The translations under genes were made by a program, and so were the position numbers. A stretch of DNA of 64,000 bases from Brevibacillus massiliensis (lineage in GTDB: Bacteria; Bacillota; Bacilli; Brevibacillales; Brevibacillaceae): the NCBI RefSeq assembly GCF_000311785.1, contig NZ_HE978536.1, positions 497,417 to 561,416 of the forward strand, given 5' to 3'. Below, in pieces: positions 11,338 to 57,035 of this stretch (positions are counted from its first letter, which is position 1; each line of letters starts with the position of its first letter). Below the pieces are notes generated by a model. That model was not told the DNA's origin. It searched no databases and saw nothing but the letters and a program-made list of their open reading frames with translations.

Positions 11338-12661
11338 CCTTGTTTCTCCCCAGTCGAAGCATCATCTCAATGCTGCCAATCAGCGCAGTGACGATCCAAA
11401 ACGCCATCATCACCCGGTAGTCATGCCAGATATCCTCATTCAGCCCGGCGACGCCGATCCCGGTTATGCTGGCAAACAATGCGATCCCCAAGGTTGCCTG
11501 GCGTCCGCCAAGCCGATTGGCCGAGATCGTGTAGCTTTCCTTCAGCAGGCGGTAGAACAGGTACAGCAGGGCCGCGATGCCGAGAATCCCGCCGTTGACA
11601 AACGCCTGAATCCAGATATTGTGCAAGTGAAAAATGTTTACTCCGGGAATCTCGTAATCGGCATAGACCCTAAAGAGCGTGCTTGGATCGCTTCCGATCC
11701 CTGTCAGCCAGTAATCGCGGATGATCGCGAACGCTGCCGTCCACATCTTGAAGCGGTAATCGCCCGAGGTGTCTTCCGTCGGGTTGACGATCGTCGCCAG
11801 CCGGTCCATGATGACCTGCGGGATCAGGTTGAAAGCCGCTGCGACCAGCACCAGGATCAAGCCGTACAAGATCAGCTTGCGATCGGTCTTCAACAAGAGC
11901 AGCAGCATCGCGAACGCGAACGCCACCCAGGCCCCGCGCGAATAGGTGAGCACGAGGGCAAGCGCCGTTACCGCGAACAGGCCGCAGAGCAAAATCTTGT
12001 GCTTGAACGCCTTGACGTAGTAAATCAGGGCGAAGCACAGCGGCAAAACCAGCACCAGGTACTCGGCAAACACGTTGGGGTTGCCGAAGACAGCGTATAT
12101 CCGCGTACCCAAAAGCGGATTGGTCTTCACGTCTACCCACTTCGGCGGCGTGTGTCCGATCAACAGGTACTGCGCCAGACCGTACAGGGCGAGCACCGCC
12201 CCGGACACGACAAAGCAGAGCAGGAAGCGGTACAGTACCGTGCGCGAATCGATGAACATCATCAGCACGGCCAAGAGCACCAGGCTGGGCAGATAGTACA
12301 GCACGTAGTCCTGCATGCTCTCCCGCAAATTGACCGAAGTGACAGCCGTAATCCCCACAGCGAGCACAAAGAAGGCAGCCGCCAGGAAGACTTTGCTCTT
12401 TACTACGTTCATCAGCCGTTCCTTGTCGATCCCCTCCATCAGCAGCAGGAAGATCAGCACCAACAGGAAAAAGATGATCGGCCGAAAAGTCAAAAATGGA
12501 TAACTCAGCGCGAAGAGGTAGAGTGCGTATTCTTTTTTGTACAGTCCGGCCAAGTAGAACCCCGCGTACAGGGTTAACTCGATAGCCATTTGGCTGAACC
12601 CCTGGGCGACGCCAAAGGCCAGCAAGACGGCCGCCGGCAATAGTGTTTTCCAGTTAAGCAT
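11324..12661 (-). CDS. O-antigen ligase/Wzy-like polymerase membrane protein
   Basis: I place the start at the ATG at 12661 (MLNWKTLLPAAVLL), preceded by GAGGAG inside the last codons of the upstream gene, giving 445 aa. It is a polytopic protein with about ten to twelve hydrophobic segments. The large extracellular loop carries LTGIGSDPSTLFRVYADYE and HLHNIWIQAFVNGGILGI, typical of the Wzy_C/WaaL family (pfam04932). Such proteins polymerise or ligate undecaprenyl-linked glycans outside the membrane. With neighbouring glycosyltransferases, a flippase and an LCP protein it completes a Wzy-type polysaccharide pathway. Confidence 0.88.
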   Translation of the reverse strand: MLNWKTLLPAAVLLAFGVAQGFSQMAIELTLYAGFYLAGLYKKEYALYLFALSYPFLTFRPIIFFLLVLIFLLLMEGIDKERLMNVVKSKVFLAAAFFVLAVGITAVTSVNLRESMQDYVLYYLPSLVLLAVLMMFIDSRTVLYRFLLCFVVSGAVLALYGLAQYLLIGHTPPKWVDVKTNPLLGTRIYAVFGNPNVFAEYLVLVLPLCFALIYYVKAFKHKILLCGLFAVTALALVLTYSRGAWVAFAFAMLLLLLKTDRKLILYGLILVLVAAAFNLIPQVIMDRLATIVNPTEDTSGDYRFKMWTAAFAIIRDYWLTGIGSDPSTLFRVYADYEIPGVNIFHLHNIWIQAFVNGGILGIAALLYLFYRLLKESYTISANRLGGRQATLGIALFASITGIGVAGLNEDIWHDYRVMMAFWIVTALIGSIEMMLRLGRNKDGTV

Positions 12662-12665
12662 CGGT

Positions 12666-12971
12666 TTACTCCTCGTCTTCATCGTGTTTCCACAAGTCAA
12701 TACAGGTGCGAATCGGCCAGCTGCCGGTCAGCCATTCCTCTTTGCCGTAAATGCGCACTGCGAACAGAAAGACTGCGATCACGGCTGAAGCGAACGCGAA
12801 GAACAGGGAAAAGTAGAATGAGTTAATAAACAGCCGGGCGATCAGATGAATCAGTCCCGCGAGAAAAAAGACGAGCGCTGCATACACCAAAAACGGACAG
12901 GCAAGCAGCTTGTCCTGCAACCGCTTCTGCCACGAAGCCTGTATCATCCGCTGAAGGAAGTCAAACATCAA
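12666..12971 (-). CDS. Small two-helix membrane protein
   Basis: A 101-aa protein (MMFDFLQRMIQASWQKRLQ start) with two hydrophobic segments at about residues 27-48 and 50-73 and an acidic tail ending DEDEE. Its ATG overlaps the stop of the upstream DUF4330-like gene by 4 bp, so translation is probably coupled. I do not recognise a family. Its conserved placement between the DUF4330-like genes and the ligase suggests an accessory subunit of the polysaccharide machinery. Confidence 0.7.
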   Translation of the reverse strand: MMFDFLQRMIQASWQKRLQDKLLACPFLVYAALVFFLAGLIHLIARLFINSFYFSLFFAFASAVIAVFLFAVRIYGKEEWLTGSWPIRTCIDLWKHDEDEE

Positions 12972-44864: not shown

Positions 44865-45059
44865 TCATACGGACTTTTTTGCGTGAATGGTCGTATCTAC
44901 AGATTCTTGGCAGTGCTGTCGTTTCCCTGCTGGCTGCCTCTGGGCAGAGAATAAAGAATACCCGAAGCGAAGCTCCGGGCCTTTTTGCTTTTGGATCCCC
45001 CTGACCAACTGTTTTATTTCTTCATGAATCAAACGGATTTCAGCGCTTTTAGCGATCAT
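44865..45059 (-). CDS. Possible small translationally coupled gene after qhpE
   Basis: A 64-codon frame (MIAKSAEIRLIHEEIKQLVR start) whose ATG overlaps the qhpE stop as ATGA, like other junctions in this operon. Only the first 30 residues look protein-like; the rest is unusual and passes through the hairpin at 44961-44979. No family is recognised. It may be a chance frame. Confidence 0.25.
   Translation of the reverse strand: MIAKSAEIRLIHEEIKQLVRGIQKQKGPELRFGYSLFSAQRQPAGKRQHCQESVDTTIHAKKSV
44958..44983 (-). terminator. Probable terminator of the qhp operon
   Basis: On the minus strand CCCGGAGC, TTC loop and GCTTCGGG (one G-U pair) are followed by TATTCTTTATTC. The T run is imperfect, so efficiency is uncertain. 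Confidence 0.45.
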
Positions 45060-45796
45060 CCGCTTTCTACCGGGACAGGCCCGAACAGCCCGAGCAAACA
45101 GGCTTCCATCTGCTGCTTGGAGCCGACTCCAAACTTTTCTTTTAATTTGGCGAGCAACCCGGTAACATGGGCGGCCGCGAAGCTGTGTCCCTGAAAGTTG
45201 AACTTCTGCATCGGCCCTTCCAGCCGCCGGGGCAGCCCTGAAGCGAGAAAGGAAACCGGCTCGTCGGGATTGTAAAAAAACAGCTCACCCGTGCACTGCC
45301 GTGCGGCTTTGACGCCAAATGCCGAATCGTAGCAGCCGGGCCACAGCAGGCCGTTTTGTTCGTCACAGGCGGCCACAATGATCACTCCCGCCGCCGCAGC
45401 CTGAGCGCAGACCTGCTGAAATTCGCCGATATCCCGGCGAACGCCGAGACTCAGGTTGATGAAATCGATTTTTGCTTCGATGCACCACTCGATCGCGGCG
45501 CAGAGCACCTCGATGTGCGCAGTCAAGGTATCGTGAAAGATTTTGAGCGACCACAGTTCCGCTTCAGGCACCTGCTCATTGAGGACGCCGGCCACCGCAG
45601 TTCCATGTCCCAACTGATCGGTATGATCGCAGGTGAGCAGGATCCTCCCCCCGGCATCTACCTGGAAGGCAGCCCCTCCGGCAATTTTGCCGGTATGGGG
45701 ATGCCACTCATTGATGCCGCTGTCTATTTGGGCGATGCTGATTCCCTTTCCTTTGCCAAAGTCACGCTCAGCCATGTAATAGCGTGACAGAGCCAT
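45056..45796 (-). CDS. qhpE: Subtilisin-like leader peptidase of QHNDH gamma subunit (QhpE)
   Basis: This compact 246-aa S8 protease lacks a signal peptide and propeptide. The catalytic triad is in IAQIDSGIN (Asp25), QLGHGTAVAG (His64) and QGHSFAAAHVTG (Ser205). The usual oxyanion asparagine position (AAGNE in subtilisins) reads AACDE here, with Asp145. In Gram-negative bacteria QhpE is a cytoplasmic protease that removes the QhpC leader after radical-SAM crosslinking. The ATG follows GGAGGGG and overlaps qhpF by 29 bp. Its size, location and lack of secretion signal all fit that role. Confidence 0.88.
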   Translation of the reverse strand: MALSRYYMAERDFGKGKGISIAQIDSGINEWHPHTGKIAGGAAFQVDAGGRILLTCDHTDQLGHGTAVAGVLNEQVPEAELWSLKIFHDTLTAHIEVLCAAIEWCIEAKIDFINLSLGVRRDIGEFQQVCAQAAAAGVIIVAACDEQNGLLWPGCYDSAFGVKAARQCTGELFFYNPDEPVSFLASGLPRRLEGPMQKFNFQGHSFAAAHVTGLLAKLKEKFGVGSKQQMEACLLGLFGPVPVESG

Positions 45797-47453
45797 GCTG
45801 ATCCCCTCCTTGAGCTTGATCGTGCGGCCTGATTTTTCCCTCAGCCACGTGCAGCAAGCGATCCACCCACATGATGTTTTGCAGGCGATGAGTGATGATG
45901 ATAACCGTTTTGTGTTTTAACCGTTCCCTGATCTGAGCAAATAGTCGGCACTCCGATTCCGCGTCCAGATGGCATGTGGCCTCGTCGAGGATCAGCACAT
46001 CCGGGTCCCGCAGCAGCGCATGGGCGAGCAGCAGGCGCTGCTTTTGCCCGGCGGACAGCCGCACTCCCTTTTCTCCCACCTGTGTCTGCAGCCGCTGCGG
46101 CATTTGTTCGATATCCTGCCAGAGGCCGACATCTTCGAGCACGGCCTGCATCTGCCATTCGTCGATTTCCTGTCCGCCCAGTTTGAGGCATTCGGCGATT
46201 GAACCGTACCACACCGGATGGTCGTGGGCGACGAGGCACACCTTGCGGTTCCAGCAGTCCCGCTTGATGGCTTGGATATCGATCCCGTCTATTGTGATCA
46301 CGCCTGCGGTAGGTTGAGTGACTCTGGCGAGGAGATCGGCAAGCGTGCTTTTGCCTGCCCCGCTCTCGCCGGTTATGCCGATCATCTCGCCTTTGGCCAG
46401 GCAGAAATCGAGCTGCTGAAAAATCGGCTTCGTCGCCTCATGCCAAAACGAGACCTGCTCGAAGCGAATGAGCAAACCCGGCGACGACAGCTTCCTCGAC
46501 CCGTCGCGCTCCAGGGGAAGCCCGAGAAACTCTCTGACGCGCCGCACCGCCACTCTGCCTTTTTGCAGGCGGATGTACAGCTGCGCAAAGCCCTGGACAG
46601 AGGCGTACAAACTTGCTTGATAAGCGGTAAAGGCAAGCAGTGTCCCCAGGCTCATCCCTCCTCCGAGAACCTTGAACCCGAGTAGCCAGATGATGCCGAT
46701 GGTGGAAACGAGCACAACCACTTGCGGAACGCCCTGGGCACACGCTCCGATCAGAGTGACCTTCAAGCTCTGTTCATTCAGCTTTGTCAACTCATCCCTG
46801 TATCTGGCTTCCAGCCAGGGCTGCAGATTCGATGCGCGGATAAAGCGGACTGAGGCCAGCGTGTCGTAGAGAAAGCTCTGGTTGCCGGCGGCCAGCTCGC
46901 GCAGGGCCATGTTGCTGGCAAACAGGGTGTCGCGAAATTTTTGCGTTCCCCAGATCAAAAGCGGCAGCAGCAGAAAACAAACGAGCGTCATTTTCCAGTC
47001 CAGCAGCAGGAGAAAGCCGACATTCAGCAGAAACGCAAGGCTGATGCTGACACACTGCAGCAAGCTGTCCGTGTACAGGCGCTGGGTCTCGGCCAAATCC
47101 TCGTTGACGCGGGAAATCACATCCCCAACCCGCTTGCCTGCGTAAAAGGAGTACGGAAGCCGAAGCACATGCCGGTAAAAAGCGGTCCGCAAATCCAGCA
47201 TCATCCGCAAGCTCATTTTGACGTAGCAAAATTTGGTCAGCAGCGATATGCCCAAGGCGCAGGCCATCAGCAGGACAGCCAGGCCCATCGCCTGCGAAAA
47301 GGGAAACGTACGCCGCAGAAATACTTCATCGATCACAAACCTGCCGAACAGCGGCTGGACCGTCGCAAGCGCCAGCGAGCAGATGTTCAGCAGCAATACG
47401 AGCACAAGCGGACCCATGTACGGCCTCTGAAACGGCAGCAGCTTCTTTTCCAT
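45768..47453 (-). CDS. qhpF: ABC exporter of the QHNDH gamma subunit (QhpF)
   Basis: From the ATG at 47453 (MEKKLLPFQRPYMGP) the product is 561 aa: six transmembrane helices (residues about 15-290) fused to a nucleotide-binding domain. Walker A is GITGESGAGKST, Walker B is DVLILDEATCHLD and the H-loop is IIITHR. The signature motif is LSAGQ rather than LSGGQ. QhpF exports the crosslinked, leader-processed gamma subunit to the outside of the membrane in known systems. No C39 peptidase domain is present, consistent with the separate protease QhpE. It starts 5 bp after the UbiU-like gene. Confidence 0.88.
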   Translation of the reverse strand: MEKKLLPFQRPYMGPLVLVLLLNICSLALATVQPLFGRFVIDEVFLRRTFPFSQAMGLAVLLMACALGISLLTKFCYVKMSLRMMLDLRTAFYRHVLRLPYSFYAGKRVGDVISRVNEDLAETQRLYTDSLLQCVSISLAFLLNVGFLLLLDWKMTLVCFLLLPLLIWGTQKFRDTLFASNMALRELAAGNQSFLYDTLASVRFIRASNLQPWLEARYRDELTKLNEQSLKVTLIGACAQGVPQVVVLVSTIGIIWLLGFKVLGGGMSLGTLLAFTAYQASLYASVQGFAQLYIRLQKGRVAVRRVREFLGLPLERDGSRKLSSPGLLIRFEQVSFWHEATKPIFQQLDFCLAKGEMIGITGESGAGKSTLADLLARVTQPTAGVITIDGIDIQAIKRDCWNRKVCLVAHDHPVWYGSIAECLKLGGQEIDEWQMQAVLEDVGLWQDIEQMPQRLQTQVGEKGVRLSAGQKQRLLLAHALLRDPDVLILDEATCHLDAESECRLFAQIRERLKHKTVIIITHRLQNIMWVDRLLHVAEGKIRPHDQAQGGDQHGSVTLLHG

Positions 47454-47458
47454 CTGAC

Positions 47459-48454
47459 TCACCGGTAGTAGCACATGAGTCCGGCGTCGCAAAACTGCGG
47501 TTGATTTCTCAGCTTTTTGGCTGTCTTGATGACCGCAGCCTCGCTCGCCTCGGCTTTCACCTGGTCAACAACCGTCCGCACCAGTTGAAGGCTGGCCAGT
47601 TTCCGGTAGGGGGCGCCTTCCCGACCGACGATTTTCAGCGAATCCACCCCGAGCTGATACAGCTTGGGGATCGCACACAGCCCGCACGGACCGAGCGGCA
47701 GTCCGTCTTGGGCCACCTGACAGCCGCAGTCGTTGACAAACCAGACAAACTCGCGGTAATCCTGCACCTGCTGGGCCAACTTCGCCTGTTCCGCAGCACT
47801 CAGCCGCTGATCGCCGTCCGCCGGGAAATACTCGTAGTCCCACTGCGCCTGAGAGCAAAACGCTCCCGCCGAATGCGTCGTCAGGCAGAAGCTCTCCTCG
47901 TACACGCAGCCGTCGTTTAGGACGAACACCTCCAGTTCGATGCCGTCTCCCGCAGCCGCCCGCAAAGCCGGGATCTCGCTTGGCTGTACGCTGCGGGGCA
48001 GGACGATTCGTTCCGCCTGCAGCTGTTTGTACAGGGCAATGCTACCCGGATTGATCGGCGCGGCGACGCTGCTGACGTGAATCGTCGCCTGCGGACAGCG
48101 CTCCTTCATCGCCACCATCAAGCCGATATCGCTGACGATAAACGCGCCGACGCCAATCTCATCCGTACAATGCGAAATCAGCTCGAGGAGCATCGGATAC
48201 TGCCCTTCCACATAAGCGGGAGCATTCAAGGTCAGGAATACGGGTATGCCATAGCGGCCCGCCAAATCGACGGCGCGCTTCAGTTCCTTCAAAGAGGGCA
48301 GTCCGGCAAAAGGGTTTCTGCGGTTGATCCACACGCCCGGCGAGTACTTGTGAATCCATTCCATCGGCGTAATTCCGCAGTAAAGCTCTTCAGCGCCGTT
48401 CTCCGCCAGCATTTCCACTTCGTCTGCCGAACCCAAAGGAGCTAATATTTTCAT
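47459..48454 (-). CDS. Peptidase U32 family protein, UbiU-like
   Basis: From the ATG at 48454 (MKILAPLGSADEVEMLAENG) the product is 331 aa. It has the U32 TIM-barrel segments AEELYCGITPMEWIHKYSP and FIVSDIGLMVAMKERCPQ. Its cysteine cluster begins Cys183-x6-Cys190, the same spacing as UbiU's first pair, followed by Cys200, Cys243, Cys245, Cys257 and Cys260. UbiU binds [4Fe-4S] and with UbiV performs oxygen-independent hydroxylation; other U32 proteins (RlhA, TrhP) hydroxylate RNA. Being inside the qhp operon, next to a UbiV-like partner, it may hydroxylate the gamma-subunit tryptophan. It should be cytoplasmic. The protease label of the family is historical. Confidence 0.82.
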   Translation of the reverse strand: MKILAPLGSADEVEMLAENGAEELYCGITPMEWIHKYSPGVWINRRNPFAGLPSLKELKRAVDLAGRYGIPVFLTLNAPAYVEGQYPMLLELISHCTDEIGVGAFIVSDIGLMVAMKERCPQATIHVSSVAAPINPGSIALYKQLQAERIVLPRSVQPSEIPALRAAAGDGIELEVFVLNDGCVYEESFCLTTHSAGAFCSQAQWDYEYFPADGDQRLSAAEQAKLAQQVQDYREFVWFVNDCGCQVAQDGLPLGPCGLCAIPKLYQLGVDSLKIVGREGAPYRKLASLQLVRTVVDQVKAEASEAAVIKTAKKLRNQPQFCDAGLMCYYR

Positions 48455-48488
48455 CGCTGCATCGCACCTGCCTCCCCTGATCAAATCG

Positions 48489-49433
48489 TTACACCGGAAT
48501 CCTCGGGCTGTACACAACCCTTGGCCGCTCAACCGCCTGCACGCCGCGCAATCCGCTTCTGACCAACTCCCGCGTATGCGCGTAAAAAGCAGTCGTCCCT
48601 TTTTGCACGATCCGGGTTTGCATGTCGCTGTGCTGCCGGTTTTTCAGCTCGTACACGTAGCGCTGGCACTCCTGTTTGCACTTCGGATCGCCGCGGAACT
48701 TACCCGCTTTCGCCGTTTCCATAAACCCGACCATGCAGGCGCTCCCGCTGGCCACGCAGCCGAAGGGAAAGTGGAAGGAGGTTAGCAGCGGCGCTTCCCA
48801 CTCTTTCATGGAAGGCACCTCGTTGCCCTGGATCAATTCGTCAAAATCGAGTCCGACCACGTTCCCCCGCTGCAAAAACGTTTGAAACCACGCGGACAAA
48901 AGGCCGGTTCGCTGGAAAAACTTCCGCCCTTCCTCCGGGGCCTTGTCGTTAGCGTAGTAGTGGGCGACGCGCGGGTCGCGGATCGTCTTGTTCAACAGCC
49001 TGCCGATTACGACATCGAGGCGGGGCAAGTGCGTCTGGATGTGATGGTAGACGCCCCAATCGTTGACGACCACCTCCACCCGCTCTCCCGTACTCGCGGC
49101 CGCCCCGTCCAAGTATGCCAAGATACTGACGAGCTGGGTAAATTTTTCACGGTGCGCATACGGAGTGGCAAAGGTGAAGGCGAATCCGCTCTCCCGGCAG
49201 TACGCCAGCGCCTTTTTCACCAGAGAAAGCGGAGGCAGCCGGTACTGGCAAAATTCGGAACCGAAGTAAATCCTCTCGGGCCTCTTCGGCTTGGCAAATG
49301 CCGCTGCCCATTCCTGAAAAAAGACTTCCTGCAATTCCGCTTCCATCGGGTTCTGCCGCGAAAACGGCAGCCACGGCTCTTCCGCCAGGCAAAGGTCGCG
49401 AAACGACTGAACGGAAACGGCAAACTCGACCAT
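48489..49433 (-). CDS. Peptidase U32 family protein, UbiV-like
   Basis: The 314-aa protein begins MVEFAVSVQSFRDLCLAEEP. It has the UbiV-type motif RIYFGSEFCQYR with Cys62, then HFPFGCVASGSACMVGFME with Cys226 and Cys233, and a Cys252-x3-Cys256 pair. E. coli UbiV uses one early cysteine plus three later ones ending in Cys-x3-Cys for its [4Fe-4S] cluster, so Cys62, Cys226 or Cys233, Cys252 and Cys256 are likely ligands. It lies 34 bp upstream of the UbiU-like gene and 27 bp downstream of qhpB. UbiU and UbiV act as a heterodimer, which suggests the same here. Target inferred from context: QhpC tryptophan. Confidence 0.8.
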   Translation of the reverse strand: MVEFAVSVQSFRDLCLAEEPWLPFSRQNPMEAELQEVFFQEWAAAFAKPKRPERIYFGSEFCQYRLPPLSLVKKALAYCRESGFAFTFATPYAHREKFTQLVSILAYLDGAAASTGERVEVVVNDWGVYHHIQTHLPRLDVVIGRLLNKTIRDPRVAHYYANDKAPEEGRKFFQRTGLLSAWFQTFLQRGNVVGLDFDELIQGNEVPSMKEWEAPLLTSFHFPFGCVASGSACMVGFMETAKAGKFRGDPKCKQECQRYVYELKNRQHSDMQTRIVQKGTTAFYAHTRELVRSGLRGVQAVERPRVVYSPRIPV

Positions 49434-49460: not shown

Positions 49461-50549
49461 CTACTGCTGCTTATCAATCTTGACGACCTGCAAGTCCCAC
49501 CCGTCTGTAGGCAGCGTGATGATTTTCTCTACCTGCAGCTCGGTGTTTGCGACGATGAATTCATTTCCTCCGCCAGCCAGGTACAATTTTGTTTCATCGG
49601 CGCTCAAGTCGATGGCATAGGTGCTCCCGTGCGGCGGATGCGAATCCTTCAGCACCTTGCCCGTCTTCATGTCTACCTTGTACAAGTGGTTGAGCACGAC
49701 ATAGCCGTACTGCTGGTTCCGGTCTACTGCGGCGGAAAACATCCCGACCGGATCTTTGTCGAACTCCAGCGTCTTCAGCTCTTCCGTTTTTAAATTGAAC
49801 CAGAGCAGCCCTTCCGTCACCCGGCCGTCCGGATACGACTTGACGAGTGGAAACGAATTGAACCCGGTGTGACTGCGGGGCCAAATCAGGAGGTAGTTTC
49901 CGATGCCATCCTCGGGTTTTTGCGGATGCTTGATTCCATGCAGCAGGGACAGTTTCATCTCTTTTACATCCAGCGTGTACAGATCATAGCCCCAGACAAA
50001 TACCGTGTTCGAATCGTCCGGCTTCCACTGCAGCACGTGGATCCCGTACGGGGCTTCGACGCTTCTGACGACTTCTTTCGTGCCGAGATCAATCTCGAGG
50101 ATTTTGCTCGGCAGTACCTTGAAGATGTTCGTTCGCTTTTCCCCCTGGGTGACAAAGGCGTACGCTTTGCTGCCGTCCGGTGAAATGGCGCTGCCCCAGA
50201 CGCGGCGGTCAAGCAAGCCGTTGTCCGTCCTGCCGGTCAGCTTGATCTCATCGATCACCTTGTTTCCCAGCGTGTCGATGACGTACAGCGAGGTTCTGCC
50301 GTTGGCAAGTGCCAACGCCTTCTTTCCGTCCTTGGTAAAGCTCAGATCGCGAACCGGCCCGTTGACTTTGATACTGGCAACCACTTCCGGCTTGGCCGGA
50401 TCGACGACCGTTACCTCACCGTAGCCAGACACGAAGACTCTCTCCATATATCCCGAATTGGCTCCACTGACCGGATGTCCCTCCCCGAAGCTTAAGAAAA
50501 AGCAGATGGCGACGATGAGATACGTTCCTATCAACGCTTTTTTGATCAT
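49461..50549 (-). CDS. qhpB: Quinohemoprotein amine dehydrogenase beta subunit
   Basis: The ATG at 50549 overlaps the qhpD stop as TGATG, giving 362 aa. An N-terminal hydrophobic stretch (ALIGTYLIVAICFFLSFGEG) is a signal peptide or anchor. The rest is a seven-bladed beta-propeller of WD/YVTN type, with repeats such as VFVSGYGEVTVVDPAKPEVV and TLGNKVIDEIKL. In QHNDH the beta propeller packs against the gamma subunit and helps form the amine-binding site. It lies between the radical-SAM gene and the UbiV-like gene. Confidence 0.88.
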   Translation of the reverse strand: MIKKALIGTYLIVAICFFLSFGEGHPVSGANSGYMERVFVSGYGEVTVVDPAKPEVVASIKVNGPVRDLSFTKDGKKALALANGRTSLYVIDTLGNKVIDEIKLTGRTDNGLLDRRVWGSAISPDGSKAYAFVTQGEKRTNIFKVLPSKILEIDLGTKEVVRSVEAPYGIHVLQWKPDDSNTVFVWGYDLYTLDVKEMKLSLLHGIKHPQKPEDGIGNYLLIWPRSHTGFNSFPLVKSYPDGRVTEGLLWFNLKTEELKTLEFDKDPVGMFSAAVDRNQQYGYVVLNHLYKVDMKTGKVLKDSHPPHGSTYAIDLSADETKLYLAGGGNEFIVANTELQVEKIITLPTDGWDLQVVKIDKQQ

Positions 50550-52012
50550 CAGTTGCTCATACACCCCTCTTTGCCGATGCCGCTGATCCGGTCGAGAAAC
50601 GCCGGGTTTTTTTCGAGAATTTTAACGTATGTCTGCAGACCGAGCGTGATCCAATCATGCATCCAGCTGCAGTAGTGGGCATTGGGGCGGCGGTAATCGC
50701 CCTGCCTTTCCATCGCTTCGTAGTAGCAGCCGCCTGAGCAAATATGCTTGAGCGCACAGAATGTACACGATTCCTTCCGGTCGACGTGCAGCTCAGCCAG
50801 CACTTCCTGCTGTCTGCGGCGATGTAAGCCAAAGTAAATATCACCTAGTTTAAACTGTTCATTTTCGTTAAAACGGTGGCAGAGGTACAACCCGCCATCC
50901 GGACTGACCGCAAAAAAACCCAGACCGGCGCCGCAGCCATACGCTTTATTCGTTCCTGTATGCAGTTCCTTCAGCAGATTGGTCAGATTGGAAAAGCCCA
51001 GATACTCATTGTTTACAGCCGCTTCGACATACAGCTCGGCCAGCTGGCGAAACTGCCGCAGCAGCTCGGCCAAATCGTCGTCGCCCAGGGCAAGCTCCAT
51101 GTTCGATTCGGTGACGGGCGCGAAGCCCACCTCGTAAAACCCTTTGGCGAGCAGATGCTCAAGCGACGTCTCCAGCTTTTCAAACCCTTTGGCCACGGTC
51201 ACCCGCGTGCCGATGGGCGCCGTTGTATGCGTTTCGAGCAGCTTGGCGACGTTTTGGCTGGTGCGGTCGTACGAGCCCTGCCCGCCTGCCATCGGCCGGT
51301 TCCTGTCATGCGCTGCCTTGGTGCCGTCCATGCTCACGGAGGTGCCGATTTTGTACTTGTGCAGAAAGACCATCTGCTCTTCCGTCATCAGCGTTCCGTT
51401 GGTGGTGAGGGAAAACGTGACCGTTTTTCCCCACCTCTTCGCCTCTTCCACAGCGTGCTCGACGATGTGCTTCAGCACTTTCCAGTTGAGAAACGGTTCG
51501 CCGCCAAACAGCACGATCGTCACCGACTTTTCGTCGAAGCTGTTTTCCAGCAAAAAGCGAATCGCCCGCTCGGCGGTTTCGATCGACATGTACTTCTGCG
51601 GCGCACCGTACTCTCCATCCCCGGCATAGCAATACGTACACCGCAGGTTGCAGGCATTGGCCAAATGAAACACCAGCGTTTTGACCGGCAGCCCCTCCGT
51701 GCTTGCCGGCACCGGCGGAGTAGCGGTAAAACGCTTCAGCTCCGTCTCTGCCAGGTCCAGAATTTCCAGTCGGGACAACTCCGCCAACATCTGCCTGTGC
51801 CGAGGGGCTGCATCTGCTCCTACTTGAGCGAGGTACTCATCGACGTCCAGCTCCACAGTATCTCCGCTTCTCGTGCCGTTCTGTTCGGCATACCGGACAA
51901 ATTCCCTGGAAAGGTGATCCAGCTGGACGATATTTCCGCTCAAACCGTGAAACAAATACTCACTGCCGCTTACTTCAAATGGAATGTAGTTTCGCAGCTG
52001 CGCAGTTCCCAA
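50549..52012 (-). CDS. qhpD: Radical SAM/SPASM thioether-forming maturase QhpD
   Basis: The 487-aa protein starts at TTG, ten bases after AAGGGAG. An N-terminal peptide-recognition-like region is followed by the radical SAM motif HLANACNLRCTYCYAGDGEY (Cys121, Cys125, Cys128), LFGGEPFLNW, and a SPASM domain with YGCGAGLGFFAVSPDGGLYL, SCTFCALKHICSGGCYYEA and a late HYCSW cysteine. QhpD builds three Cys-to-Asp/Glu thioether bonds within QhpC using auxiliary iron-sulfur clusters. All cluster cysteines appear present. It lies between qhpA and qhpB. Confidence 0.92.
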   Translation of the reverse strand: MGTAQLRNYIPFEVSGSEYLFHGLSGNIVQLDHLSREFVRYAEQNGTRSGDTVELDVDEYLAQVGADAAPRHRQMLAELSRLEILDLAETELKRFTATPPVPASTEGLPVKTLVFHLANACNLRCTYCYAGDGEYGAPQKYMSIETAERAIRFLLENSFDEKSVTIVLFGGEPFLNWKVLKHIVEHAVEEAKRWGKTVTFSLTTNGTLMTEEQMVFLHKYKIGTSVSMDGTKAAHDRNRPMAGGQGSYDRTSQNVAKLLETHTTAPIGTRVTVAKGFEKLETSLEHLLAKGFYEVGFAPVTESNMELALGDDDLAELLRQFRQLAELYVEAAVNNEYLGFSNLTNLLKELHTGTNKAYGCGAGLGFFAVSPDGGLYLCHRFNENEQFKLGDIYFGLHRRRQQEVLAELHVDRKESCTFCALKHICSGGCYYEAMERQGDYRRPNAHYCSWMHDWITLGLQTYVKILEKNPAFLDRISGIGKEGCMSN

Positions 52013-52030: not shown

Positions 52031-53659
52031 CTAGTGAACGATGTTGTTGTAGTCCGGAACGGTGGACACAAGATGGGCTTGAGCAGAAAACACCTTGCCG
52101 TCAACTGCCGCTTTGGCTACGACTGTTGCGCTTCCGACGTTTTCCTGGGTGTATTCCCTTGCCGGATTGATCCCTTCCGCCTTGGGCGTGTACAGGCCGT
52201 CTTGCTCAAGCGTCCCCAAATACTGCAGGTATTGGCTGTTTGCTCCTTCGGGATAGGCGGCCAATGACCACTCGGCGTCGACAGCGTCCAAGGTCAGGTC
52301 GTCGTCAGTGCCCTGCTTGCCGTCTTTTCCCTTGCTCATCCCGTAGGCGACAAACTGGGTGCTGACTTTATTCATCGGGCCTTCGCCGCCCATTCGCGCT
52401 ACCCCGTACGCCGGGGCAATCTTGATATAGTCGACTTTGTCGTACACGACGAGTTCCTTGTGAACGACCGCTCGATCGGTCCCGATGGCAAACGAACCGA
52501 TGTCGGCGCTGTCCGCCGCTGTCAAGCGAAGCTGCGCCTGTTCGTCAGCGACCACGTCGATCTCCTCTGCCGTTACGCCTGTGGGCAGATGCAAATCGGA
52601 CGCCTTCAGCTTGCCGAGGTTCATCCCGTAGAGAGTGACCTGGTTCGTCGCTCCTTTTTTCAATGCCCTTGGTTCAAAATGGATAATTTCCGGCTTTTCC
52701 GTTTGCAGCTTGTAATACGTTTCTTCCCCGGCAAGGCCCGAATCGCTCTTCTCTGACCAGTCGCCTTCAATCACATTCCCCTGCCCTTGCACATTGTAGG
52801 TTCCCTTCAACTCTCTTCCTGCCGCCTTGTAGTCCGCGCGTACCATAAATCCGCCGTAGAGCTTAATCTCGCCCTCCAGCTGAACGGACGCCTTGCTTTT
52901 CAGAAACTGAATCTGCTTCTGTTCCTTGTAACCGCTTTCCGTTTTCTTGAACTGGCTCTCTCCCAGGTAGAATCCTTTTGTTCCCTGAAATCCGGCTACT
53001 TTCCATTTCCCTTGCAGATCGTTCTCGCGGCCTTTCCACTTGTCCCACTCCGGCGTCTGGAGCGGATACATTTGCGCCAGATACTCCAGTGCGGCTTCCG
53101 CTTCAGCCGGCCAGTCCATATGGCGGTGGTTCAGATAGATCGAGGGAAACATCACCAGGTGGAAGTCCTTCAGGTTTTTCCATTCCTCTTCCGAGCGGCG
53201 CTGCGCTTCAAACCGCCCGGCTGCGTGGCACGTAATGCAGCTGCTCTGCACGTTCGGATTTTGCGGCAACGGCTCGGCATAGGAAGGTTTGTCTGCCAGC
53301 CAATACTGCACCTTCTCCGCTTCTTCCGGAGCCAAGCCGCGCTCCCGGCTCAAGTCGGCCACCAATTGCTCGCGTTCCGCTGCCGACAATTGAACGCCGT
53401 GAATGCGTTCCATTCGGGCAATCGTCTGTGACCAGCCTTCAGGGCTTTTTCGCACGTATTCGATGCGGGCCAGTTTGCCGTTCTGGTCGACAGCGTGACA
53501 GCTCATACACGATTTTTCCACCTGCTTGCTGACATGCACAACCTCTTTTGGCGGATCATCATGCCGGTCGCTCGTCTCCTGCGAGCCAGACAATTGCGAG
53601 ATGATGATCGCAACTACGACGACTGCGCACAGCACGGCCAAGATTCTCGTTTTTGTCAT
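52031..53659 (-). CDS. qhpA: Quinohemoprotein amine dehydrogenase alpha subunit (diheme)
   Basis: The 542-aa protein has an N-terminal membrane segment (residues about 5-22, RILAVLCAVVVVAIIISQL) with no obvious cleavage site, so it may remain anchored. Two c-type heme sites follow: CMSCH at 51-55 and CITCH at 141-145. The C-terminal two thirds form the beta-barrel and Ig-like domains of the family (FQGTKGFYLGESQFKKTESG and IHFEPRALKKGATNQVTLYG). The hemes carry electrons from CTQ to an external acceptor. The ATG follows GAGGAG. It starts 14 bp after qhpC. Confidence 0.93.
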   Translation of the reverse strand: MTKTRILAVLCAVVVVAIIISQLSGSQETSDRHDDPPKEVVHVSKQVEKSCMSCHAVDQNGKLARIEYVRKSPEGWSQTIARMERIHGVQLSAAEREQLVADLSRERGLAPEEAEKVQYWLADKPSYAEPLPQNPNVQSSCITCHAAGRFEAQRRSEEEWKNLKDFHLVMFPSIYLNHRHMDWPAEAEAALEYLAQMYPLQTPEWDKWKGRENDLQGKWKVAGFQGTKGFYLGESQFKKTESGYKEQKQIQFLKSKASVQLEGEIKLYGGFMVRADYKAAGRELKGTYNVQGQGNVIEGDWSEKSDSGLAGEETYYKLQTEKPEIIHFEPRALKKGATNQVTLYGMNLGKLKASDLHLPTGVTAEEIDVVADEQAQLRLTAADSADIGSFAIGTDRAVVHKELVVYDKVDYIKIAPAYGVARMGGEGPMNKVSTQFVAYGMSKGKDGKQGTDDDLTLDAVDAEWSLAAYPEGANSQYLQYLGTLEQDGLYTPKAEGINPAREYTQENVGSATVVAKAAVDGKVFSAQAHLVSTVPDYNNIVH

Positions 53660-53672
53660 CGCGGCACTCCTC

Positions 53673-53993
53673 TTACGGCTTCACGTATTTTAATTTGCGC
53701 CAATCATTGGCTGCCACCGGGCATTCATCCGCCCAGCTTCCGTAGTTCGTCAGCCCGTCAGGCACCTGGGCCGCCCACCAACAGTCGCCGTAACAGCCGT
53801 AGATGTCGCGGTAATGCGGCTGGCATAAGCCGTCGAGCCCCATGGCGGAAAAGTCCGTCTCCCATCCGGGATCAAACAGATTGGCACATCCCATCGGCAG
53901 CAGTGAAAGGCCCTCCACCTCCGGCGGTTTTTCCGTGTTGACAACCCGTTCGATCATTTTCCCTTTCCAATTTAATGAATGGACATGCTTCAT
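53673..53993 (-). CDS. qhpC: Quinohemoprotein amine dehydrogenase gamma subunit precursor (CTQ-bearing)
   Basis: The 106-aa precursor has no signal peptide. Its first 30 or so residues (MKHVHSLNWKGKMIERVV...) are a leader. The core keeps the spacing of Pseudomonas gamma: Cys36/Glu45, Cys57/Asp63 and Cys71/Asp79 for the three thioether bonds, and Cys67/Trp73 for the cysteine tryptophylquinone. The segment DIYGCYGDCWWAAQVPD holds the CTQ pair. Cys91 is extra. QhpD crosslinks the peptide, QhpE cuts the leader and QhpF exports it. It is the first gene of the operon, with AAAGGGG upstream. Confidence 0.95.
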   Translation of the reverse strand: MKHVHSLNWKGKMIERVVNTEKPPEVEGLSLLPMGCANLFDPGWETDFSAMGLDGLCQPHYRDIYGCYGDCWWAAQVPDGLTNYGSWADECPVAANDWRKLKYVKP

Positions 53994-54178: not shown

Positions 54179-54880
54179 GTGGATGAAATCCTGATCGTAG
54201 AAGACGACAAAGACATACAAAAGCTCCTGTCGCTCTGTTTTGAACAGGAAGCCCTCCCCTATTCCGTAGCCTCTACCGGCAAAGAAGCGATTGAACAGGT
54301 GAAAAAAAGGGCGCCTTCGTTGATCCTGCTCGACATGATGCTGCCCGATATCGACGGCATTTTGGTCTGTCAACAGCTGCGCATGCTGACCACGTCTCCG
54401 ATCCTTTTTGTCACCTGCAAAAACGGAGACAACGACAAGATTCTCGGCCTCAGTATCGGGGCAGACGACTATATCGAAAAGCCGTTTAACATCAGCGTGC
54501 TGCTGGCTCGTGTCCGGGCCCACCTGCGACGAAACCGGATGCTGAAAAAACAGCAGGCCAAACAAGACCAAAGCATTCACTTTGACCACATGATCATTAA
54601 CGCCAGCGCCCGTGAAGTCTTGCGTGACGGAAAAAAGATCCACCTGACCGCCAAAGAATTCGATCTTTTGCACTTTTTGACGCAGCACCCCAACCAGGTG
54701 TTCTCGCCTGAACAACTGCTGGACAAAATCTGGGGCATCGATTCATTCGGCGAAAAAAGAACCGTGATCGTGCACATGTCGAGCTTGCGCAAGAAAATTG
54801 AGGAAGATCCGTTGAATCCCCGTTACATTGTGACTGTGAGAGGGGTTGGATACAAATTTGTGGAGGCTGCAAACCATTAA
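54179..54880 (+). CDS. OmpR/PhoB-family response regulator
   Basis: The 233-aa protein starts at GTG (MDEILIVEDDKDIQKLLSLC) seven bases after GGAGGG. The receiver domain has acidic residues 8-10, the phosphoacceptor Asp52 in LILLDMMLPDIDG and the conserved YIEKPFN lysine. The C-terminal winged helix contains LTAKEFDLLHFLTQHPNQVF and the KRTVIVHMSSLRKKIEEDP recognition helix region. It is divergent from qhpC and overlaps the kinase gene. In other bacteria QHNDH is controlled by AraC-type QhpR; here this regulator is the likely substitute, by inference. Confidence 0.92.
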   Translation: MDEILIVEDDKDIQKLLSLCFEQEALPYSVASTGKEAIEQVKKRAPSLILLDMMLPDIDGILVCQQLRMLTTSPILFVTCKNGDNDKILGLSIGADDYIEKPFNISVLLARVRAHLRRNRMLKKQQAKQDQSIHFDHMIINASAREVLRDGKKIHLTAKEFDLLHFLTQHPNQVFSPEQLLDKIWGIDSFGEKRTVIVHMSSLRKKIEEDPLNPRYIVTVRGVGYKFVEAANH

Positions 54881-57035
54881 GACATCGTTTTTTCGCAAAA
54901 TTCTCTCTTTTACCGCCCTGCTATCGTCTGTCCCATTCATTGTCCTCGGTGTTTACAGTCTGTTTCAGGTCAATGACTTGTCGGCCAGAATGACGGAAAA
55001 TCAAATCAAAACCACGATGGATGACGCCTTGGAGCAAAAGTTCGCCCTGCTGGAAAAAGAGGCGGAGCTGATCAACATGGAATTTCTCAAAGTGGAGGAG
55101 AACTTGAAACTGCTGCAAAAGCAGGCCGAATACTTGTTTGCCAAAAGCGGCAAGCATCCCGATGCGCTTCCCGACATTCAGCTGATGCAGCGTCCCCAGG
55201 GGTACCGCTGGGAACCGTTCGCCAATCCGTACGAGCAAGCCAATATTTTCGTCAGTGCCAGCGCTTCGCCCAAGCTGACGACGGGCGAGCTCGGCACTGC
55301 CAAAGAACTTGAGCCCTTGATGATGCAGACGAACCGGAACAACTCCATGCTCAAGGCGGTGTTTTTTTGCTTTGCCGAATCCGGCTGGATCATCTACCCG
55401 GCGATGAATGTCGACTACGAGGTTGCCATCAACAAACTGCCGCCCGATATTAAGGTCCAGGATTACGAATTCTACTATCTGGCGGATGAGCGGCATAACC
55501 CGCAGAAAACGATTACATGGACCAATCCGTACAACGACGTCACCCACTGGGAAACGGTGACGACCGCATTGATTCCCGTTTACCTCCCGTCGGGCAAACT
55601 GCGCGGTGTGCTGGGGGCCGATTTTCCCGTCGCCTACATAGACGACCGGATCCTCCACTTAAAATTTAAGGAGCCCCACGCGTTTGCCTTCATTCGGGAC
55701 AAGCAGGGGCATTTCATCGCCGGGCAGAAGAACAGCCTGCCGTCCGCGCTTTTTTCACAGGGGTCGCTCGCATCGTTTCCACCGTCAGCCAGCGATGACA
55801 GCAGCACCGCGAGAAGCGAAAACGCGGCCAAAGGCATTCGGAAAATGTCCACTCCGGAGGGAAATTTTTATGTCATGTTTGCGCCGATTTCGAGCAACGG
55901 CTGGGTGCTTCACTTCGTCATCCCCGAGTCGGATATCATCGATCCGGTTATCAAAAATGCCAATGAGCAAACGGCCATTCAGATGGAGGCGTTTGCCCGG
56001 CGTCTGTTATTCTTTCTGTTCTTAGGCTCGGTGACCGTCATCCTCTTCTCCTACCATTTCTCCCGGACTGTGACGGAGCCGGTCAAGCAATTGACGAAAG
56101 CGACCCAGGAAATCGCCAAAGGCCATTACAGGATCGCCATTCCTGTCACCGTACATGACGAAATCGGCCATCTGACGGAAACCTTTAACTCGATGAATGT
56201 GACGATTGACAAGCTGATCCGCGAATTGACCGAGCGGGCCAACGAATTGGAGGAACGGGTGGATGAACGCACCAGAGCGCTGCAGGAAGCAAACGCCCAG
56301 CTGACAGAGACCTTTGACCGTCTGAAAAAATCGGAACTGGCCCGAACCGAGTTAATCGTCCAAATCTCACACGATTTAAAGACGCCGCTCACGTCCATCA
56401 AGGGCTACGCCCAGCTGATCAGCGAGTACAGCTTTTCGCCCGAGCAGCAAAAGGAGTACATGCAGCTGATTCTGTTCCGGATCAACCACATGATCCAGCT
56501 GATTGAAGATTTGTTCGAGATTTCCCGCCTGGATGTCAACGAAACGTACGACAAGGAGTGTCTGCCGATTGGCTTTATCCTCGAACACGCTCTGGAGATT
56601 GTCACCGGCAAGGCGGAGAGCACAAGCATTCAGATCCAATGCGACTGCCCCGACGATCTGCCGCTCGTCCATGTCGACCCGAAAAAGCTGAATCGCGCGC
56701 TGGTCAACATTTTGCAGAATGCGATCAAATACTCCCGCGATAAAGGGGAGACGATCCTTCAGATCAACGCTTTTCAGCAGGATGCCCGCTTGCTGATCGC
56801 GATCACAGACAACGGCGCGGGCATCGCTGCGGAAAATCTCGAAAAAATTTTCACGCCCTTTTACCGCGAGCCGCAGCACCACGGCGTGCAGATAGCGGGA
56901 AGCGGCTTGGGGTTGACGATTGCCAAAAAGATTATCGAGGGCCATCAGGGAGACATCTCCATCCGCAGCAGCGTCGGGGTGGGGACGACAGTGACGATCG
57001 CCCTGCCTGTGTCGGAGCAGGAGTGGGCCATTTGA
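54846..57035 (+). CDS. Membrane sensor histidine kinase with extracytoplasmic Cache-like domain
   Basis: The frame opens at TTG 54846, but GGAGG at 54862-54866 points to a start at ATT 54876 (overlapping the regulator's stop), so the N-terminus is uncertain. TM1 is near residues 20-40, a 340-residue extracytoplasmic dCACHE-like domain follows, TM2 is near 385-403, then HAMP (404-456), a coiled coil, HisKA with ISHDLKTPLTSIKGYAQ (His509) and HATPase with NILQNAIKYS, DNGAGI and GSGLGLTIAKKII. Cache domains bind small amines, amino acids or carboxylates. It is the natural partner of the upstream regulator and may sense amines. Confidence 0.9.
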   Translation: MDTNLWRLQTIKTSFFRKILSFTALLSSVPFIVLGVYSLFQVNDLSARMTENQIKTTMDDALEQKFALLEKEAELINMEFLKVEENLKLLQKQAEYLFAKSGKHPDALPDIQLMQRPQGYRWEPFANPYEQANIFVSASASPKLTTGELGTAKELEPLMMQTNRNNSMLKAVFFCFAESGWIIYPAMNVDYEVAINKLPPDIKVQDYEFYYLADERHNPQKTITWTNPYNDVTHWETVTTALIPVYLPSGKLRGVLGADFPVAYIDDRILHLKFKEPHAFAFIRDKQGHFIAGQKNSLPSALFSQGSLASFPPSASDDSSTARSENAAKGIRKMSTPEGNFYVMFAPISSNGWVLHFVIPESDIIDPVIKNANEQTAIQMEAFARRLLFFLFLGSVTVILFSYHFSRTVTEPVKQLTKATQEIAKGHYRIAIPVTVHDEIGHLTETFNSMNVTIDKLIRELTERANELEERVDERTRALQEANAQLTETFDRLKKSELARTELIVQISHDLKTPLTSIKGYAQLISEYSFSPEQQKEYMQLILFRINHMIQLIEDLFEISRLDVNETYDKECLPIGFILEHALEIVTGKAESTSIQIQCDCPDDLPLVHVDPKKLNRALVNILQNAIKYSRDKGETILQINAFQQDARLLIAITDNGAGIAAENLEKIFTPFYREPQHHGVQIAGSGLGLTIAKKIIEGHQGDISIRSSVGVGTTVTIALPVSEQEWAI

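Follow-up and report, generated by a model that had tools for sequence, protein, structure and literature searches.

In the Bacillota operons for the amine-degrading enzyme QHNDH (qhp) the flavoprotein monooxygenase QhpG is missing and two genes of the U32 type, here called U and V, are always present, so that these bacteria probably build the same cofactor, CTQ, by a different and possibly oxygen-free chemistry. We consider it likely that U and V together constitute a two-subunit iron-sulfur hydroxylase, which takes over the task of QhpG in CTQ maturation. The preliminary description of this DNA had placed a U32 pair where QhpG would otherwise act, and replacement of QhpG by the U/V pair in Bacillota is strongly supported, at the level of sequence, by an exact co-occurrence with QhpC, by the absence of QhpG and by the residues which QhpC has kept.

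The qhp Operon of Brevibacillus massiliensis

The window, i.e., the whole stretch of DNA that was analyzed, comprises 64,000 nt of Brevibacillus massiliensis (GCF_000311785.1, contig NZ_HE978536.1, positions 497,417–561,416, forward strand), taken from a genome of the class Bacilli that is 5.06 Mb in size and 99% complete. It contains a compact qhp operon on the minus strand (53993–45056) with the gene order C-A-D-B-V-U-F-E, in which the two U32-type genes are included. The first gene encodes the gamma-subunit precursor QhpC of 106 aa (53673–53993), which reaches 142.6 bits against the cut-off of 50 in the NCBIfam model QH_gamma, and it is followed by the alpha subunit QhpA of 542 aa (52031–53659; TIGR03908, 394 bits, cut-off 274), a protein with two c-type heme sites and a hydrophobic N-terminal segment. 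Next in order are the radical SAM/SPASM crosslinking enzyme QhpD (50549–52012; TIGR03906, 428 bits, cut-off 453) and the beta-propeller beta subunit QhpB (49461–50564; TIGR03907, E = 2.9e-34, 119 bits, cut-off 223). At the distal end of the operon are the ABC exporter QhpF (45768–47453), recognized by the Pfam domains ABC_membrane and ABC_tran and starting at ATG 47453 within an open reading frame that opens at 47492, and the subtilisin-like leader protease QhpE (45056–45796; NCBIfam NF049966, 154.9 bits, cut-off 165). The alpha, beta, and gamma subunits, QhpD, QhpE, and QhpF, which define a QHNDH operon when they are encoded together, are thus all found in the window, and because QhpB, QhpD, and QhpE stay under their curated cut-offs we regard the operon as a divergent branch.

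V (314 aa, 48489–49433) and U (331 aa, 47459–48454) lie head to tail on the same minus strand, flanked by qhpB and qhpF. The start of U is best read as ATG 48454, its open reading frame opening at 48532. Junctions within the operon are short or overlapping, and clear ribosome-binding sites precede several of the genes (e.g., GGAGG upstream of V and GGGGAGG upstream of U). Divergent from qhp, the plus strand (54179–57035) encodes a response regulator together with a sensor kinase, which recur beside qhp in 6–7 of 12 Bacillota loci; the pair may be an amine sensor in the place of the AraC-type regulator QhpR.

Proteins U and V as Members of the U32 Superfamily

The presence of two U32-family genes between qhpB and qhpF, as first read from the sequence, is confirmed by different means for each of them. 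U belongs to the family Peptidase_U32 by the curated cut-off of PF01136 (E = 8.9e-32, 110.7 bits versus 22.4), and its profile matches those of known U32 proteins, with TrhP2 as the best (5e-32), followed by UbiU (E = 1.2e-28) and also RlhA. The NCBIfam model for TrhP gives U 63.8 bits, which does not reach the cut-off of 534. In a phylogenetic tree U forms its own clade with support of 100/99, outside UbiU, TrhP, and RlhA; it joins no known U32 group, and with a branch length of 3.1 its exact sister is uncertain. Cysteines 183, 190, 200, and 243 of U align with C169, C176, C193, and C232 of UbiU, which are proven cluster ligands (Cys residues in PMC6747719), and they are found in 13/13 sequences with the spacing C-x6-C-x9-C-x42-C. 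Four further cysteines, arranged as C257-x2-C260 and C322-x5-C328, are invariant in the same 13 sequences and absent from UbiU, and C26 is likewise invariant. The extra cysteines may form a second iron-sulfur cluster or a metal site that UbiU does not possess. The structure model of U is of low confidence around the cysteine loops, and the U32 structure 5D88 is among its best structural matches.

V is assigned as a remote U32-type TIM-barrel protein through profile comparison and fold. In single-sequence scans V of the window has no match in Pfam, where its best homologue reaches 13.5 bits and stays under the PF01136 cut-off, and no match to the NCBIfam UbiV model. When its profile is compared with a merged U32 profile, however, the probability is 95% (pairwise E = 2.9e-8 over 221 columns) with the CX6C segments in register, as against at most 0.6% for five non-U32 decoy profiles. 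The structure model of V is a TIM barrel (pLDDT 78), and the sole PDB match with E < 0.001 in a fold comparison is 5D88 (E = 4.9e-5), the uncharacterized archaeal U32 protein MK0906. In further structural comparisons, CutC and other barrels score near 5D88, and for V 5D88 is tied with the CutC barrels (Z 12.8 versus 12.4), so the fold by itself is no proof that V is a U32 protein. Sequence searches of the solved structures, whether started from U, from V alone, or from the V profile, gave no useful match, and 5D88, the only U32 structure solved, was reached through its fold and not by sequence. From profile and model together, V appears to be a remote and weakly detectable member of the U32 superfamily in the wide sense. 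Its cysteines C62, C233, C252, and C256, corresponding to the UbiV set, are kept in 12/12 sequences, and C226, which forms a C-x6-C with C233, in 11/12. The UbiV-type motif C-xn-C-x12-C-x3-C is found in V with x18 in place of x12 (C233-x18-C252-x3-C256). The cysteines first cited from the sequence (Cys183-x6-Cys190 in U; Cys62 and Cys252-x3-Cys256 in V) are therefore correct.

How closely the pair resembles UbiU and UbiV is another matter. The two systems share adjacent genes, sizes (approximately 330 and 300 aa), and all four cluster cysteines of each subunit, and UbiU-UbiV likewise replaces O2-dependent flavin monooxygenases whose target is an aromatic ring. The label UbiU/UbiV-like given to the pair in the preliminary description thus stands for architecture and cluster cysteines, whereas it does not stand for orthology: U scores 76–95 bits with the NCBIfam UbiU model, whose cut-off is 440, and has its separate clade, V has no UbiV match, there is no adjacent UbiT (SCP2) gene, the proposed substrate is a peptide, and U has the additional invariant C257, C260, C322, and C328. 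Judged by these comparisons U and V are not UbiU and UbiV. The tRNA-hydroxylating TrhP1-TrhP2 (YrrN-YrrO) also have the U32 fold and paired genes in Bacillota, but their cluster motif is C-x6-C-x15-C-x3-C, TrhP1 lacks the four-cysteine set, and clade and gene context differ; cysteine spacing, clade, and context rule them out as source or identity of the U/V pair. Only two U32-family matches are found in the window's genome, namely U of the qhp operon and a cysteine-poor protein encoded among sugar-acid/alcohol dehydrogenase genes. The latter is unrelated to the U/V pair, and the genome seems, from its sequence, to be without TrhP1-TrhP2.

Conservation and Co-occurrence in Bacillota

The eight-gene order C-A-D-B-V-U-F-E is found in 12 complete Bacillota loci, that is, in the window and in 11 others from Bacillus badius, B. 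aerolatus, three more Bacillus/Bacillaceae strains, Neobacillus mesonae, two Aneurinibacillus species, and three more genomes. In a thirteenth genome, which belongs to a different class of the phylum, QhpC-QhpA-QhpD and U-QhpF-QhpE lie on two separate contigs; both contigs end at the locus, the second one within U, and V and QhpB therefore fall in the gap. U is present in 13/13 of the Bacillota qhp genomes and V in 12/12 of those with a complete locus, and gene order and cysteines are kept across the 12 complete loci.

The co-occurrence of QhpC with the U32 pair and with qhpG, which the preliminary description had suggested to compare, was scored for the pair in 399 evenly drawn genomes of Bacilli. 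The QhpC model finds 6/399 genomes; the U profile finds the same six with at least 638 bits, and elsewhere at most 89 bits among the matches listed, in proteins of TrhP2-like length; and the V profile finds the same six with no others at E ≤ 1e-10. The nominal probability of this identity is approximately 2e-13, which, as the six carriers come from three genera only, is to be read as strong linkage rather than as many independent events.

When the open reading frames that flank the 12 loci were clustered, none of the families extended over more than seven loci. Those that recur are a sensor kinase, a response regulator, a sigma-54-type activator, an aldehyde dehydrogenase, an alcohol dehydrogenase, and housekeeping genes, and no oxygenase-like family, judged from sequence, is among the recurrent flank genes of the 12 loci. 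With no other conserved candidate in the flanks, U and V are by elimination the sole genes of the conserved set without an assigned role. In six Bacillus-type loci the aldehyde dehydrogenase gene lies close to qhp, mostly together with a zinc alcohol dehydrogenase gene, which fits a clearance of the amine-derived aldehyde.

Distribution of QhpG

The QhpG references were taken from the qhp loci of Pseudomonas, Cupriavidus, Paracoccus, and Leisingera; that of Pseudomonas matches the structure 7CTQ (E = 1.8e-153), and the other three align with it. A profile built on QhpG scores 639–695 bits in these four proteobacterial loci. The same profile finds no QhpG in ten Bacillota qhp genomes including that of the window, where the best partial match does not exceed 33 bits and the partial matches cover mostly the N-terminal dinucleotide-binding segment. 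A QhpG homologue at another place in the genome, which the preliminary description had named as evidence against the replacement, is thus found neither in the window's genome nor in the nine other Bacillota genomes.

Outside Bacillota, the mutual exclusion of the two systems is read on plasmid records of five genera. QhpC was found in 26 proteobacterial plasmid records, of which 25 also have a clear QhpG. The remaining record, from Novosphingobium, has between qhpB and qhpF a very divergent QhpG-like open reading frame (38 bits; 11394–12683 of locus L023) that occupies the same slot as V-U in Bacillota, and, at a different site of the plasmid, another QhpG-like match that is stronger (149 bits). 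We considered Novosphingobium as a second case of QhpG loss and rejected it because of the divergent frame in the qhpB-qhpF slot. No U-like gene above the level of UbiU or TrhP was found on the plasmids; the U searches returned UbiU, TrhP, or RlhA-type proteins only, with at most 28% identity among the matches listed. On plasmids of Bradyrhizobium barranii and Mesorhizobium, genes for QhpD-like radical SAM proteins adjoin or overlap others that are annotated as tryptophan 7-halogenase or FAD monooxygenase, and no QhpC was found on these two records. Further pairs of a peptide-modifying radical SAM enzyme and a flavoprotein may therefore exist.

Conservation of the QhpC Substrate

An alignment of 13/13 Bacillota QhpC sequences shows that they keep the equivalents of Cys7, Glu16, Cys27, Asp33, Cys41, Asp49, Cys37, and Trp43, the first six of which we take to be paired as the three crosslinks Cys7-Glu16, Cys27-Asp33, and Cys41-Asp49 of QHNDH structures. 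In the QhpC of the window the CTQ tryptophan sits in a CWW motif. Since the crosslink residues and this tryptophan are kept, the product should still be CTQ, for which two oxygens are needed. The roles of these residues have been described for the known enzyme (PMC7876137). In a Paracoccus qhpG mutant QhpC was crosslinked but without quinone (PMC7876137), so that the oxygenation step is not spontaneous in that organism. The QhpC of Bacillota has an additional conserved C-terminal cysteine (ECP), which is shared by Novosphingobium and missing from Paracoccus, Pseudomonas, Cupriavidus, and Leisingera.

A Proposed Role for U and V in CTQ Maturation

U and V would by inference take the same place in the pathway as QhpG (7CTQ), which is also qhp-encoded, that is, the step at which the CTQ tryptophan in QhpC receives its oxygens. 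The two kinds of enzyme have no sequence relation: QhpG is a monooxygenase that works with FAD and O2, whereas U and V belong to the TIM-barrel proteins of the U32 type and carry cluster cysteines. In the heterodimer of UbiU and UbiV each subunit holds one [4Fe-4S] cluster; the pair apparently acts on neighboring positions of an aromatic ring (PMC6747719), and its oxygen donor is not O2 even when air is present (PMC10470549). In anaerobic ubiquinone synthesis the donor is prephenate (PMC11574389, citing PNAS 2024). The exchange of QhpG for U-V has the same form as UbiU-UbiV standing in for flavin monooxygenases, and by this analogy each subunit of U-V would probably carry a [4Fe-4S] cluster and prephenate would probably be the oxygen source. 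A chorismate mutase gene is present in the host, and prephenate can thus be made.

The order of events can be modeled on the known proteobacterial pathway. QhpD would first crosslink QhpC, and the U-V pair, presumably a heterodimer, would then hydroxylate the indole of the CTQ tryptophan at C6 and C7. QhpE would subsequently take off the leader and QhpF would export the subunit, and final oxidation and Cys-Trp bonding would give CTQ. The full scheme is somewhat favored in our assessment: a heterodimer of U32 iron-sulfur proteins would place both hydroxyl groups on a peptidyl tryptophan independently of O2, taking the oxygen from prephenate, and so help to build a protein-derived quinone cofactor. 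The host has three heme-copper oxidase subunit I genes and the hosts appear to be aerobes, so independence from O2 would not be explained by anaerobic life. It could instead be a chemical choice, related to a less aerobic cytoplasm or to the radical SAM partner.

The same oxidases mean that O2 is available, and one may ask whether U and V are only accessory factors, serving in electron delivery or as a scaffold or chaperone of the QhpC-QhpD complex, while the tryptophan is oxygenated by the QhpA hemes, in the manner of TTQ biogenesis, or by a non-homologous enzyme from another part of the genome. Other monooxygenases are to be expected in a 5 Mb genome, and QhpG itself assists the crosslinking by QhpD in a ternary complex (PMC7876137). 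Such a reading has to make a two-gene module strictly tied to QhpC coincide with the loss of QhpG, the flanks of all loci share no other family, and the family to which the conserved clusters point consists, where functions have been assigned, of hydroxylating proteins; we hold it to be unlikely. Less probable still is that U and V are hydroxylases which modify QhpC a single time, or at a different residue, and that the second oxygen comes autocatalytically or via hemes, as in MADH, LodA, and GoxA. QhpA does carry two hemes, and in TTQ and LodA/GoxA the first and second oxygens differ in their source (PMC7876137), but UbiUV appears to act on two positions of a ring (PMC6747719), and in the same motif of QhpC both oxygens are provided by QhpG. 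That U and V are peptidases processing or proof-reading QhpC, as the Pfam name Peptidase_U32 of PF01136 would have it, is very improbable, as the operon already encodes the leader protease QhpE, both proteins keep four-cysteine clusters, and hydroxylation is the function of UbiU, UbiV, TrhP, and RlhA (PMC6747719, PMC11574389).

Implications for U32 Enzymes and for QHNDH in Gram-Positive Bacteria

In the open-access literature, to which the search was confined, we found no report that brings QHNDH and U32 proteins together, and among the open-access papers found on QhpD, QHNDH, and U32 no Gram-positive variant came up; an earlier description elsewhere is possible. If hydroxylation by the U/V pair is true, the U32 hydroxylases would, besides small molecules and RNA, also act on a residue of a protein, their first protein substrate, and an O2-dependent hydroxylase would have been exchanged for U32 proteins a third time, after ubiquinone and tRNA. 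It would also provide a soluble and genetically tractable U32 protein substrate with a clear mass readout of +32 Da, which U32 chemistry has so far been without because the precursors of ubiquinone are very hydrophobic. The O2-dependent flavoprotein step of cofactor biogenesis would then have a non-homologous and possibly O2-independent counterpart, and this would explain how Gram-positive bacteria produce QHNDH without QhpG.
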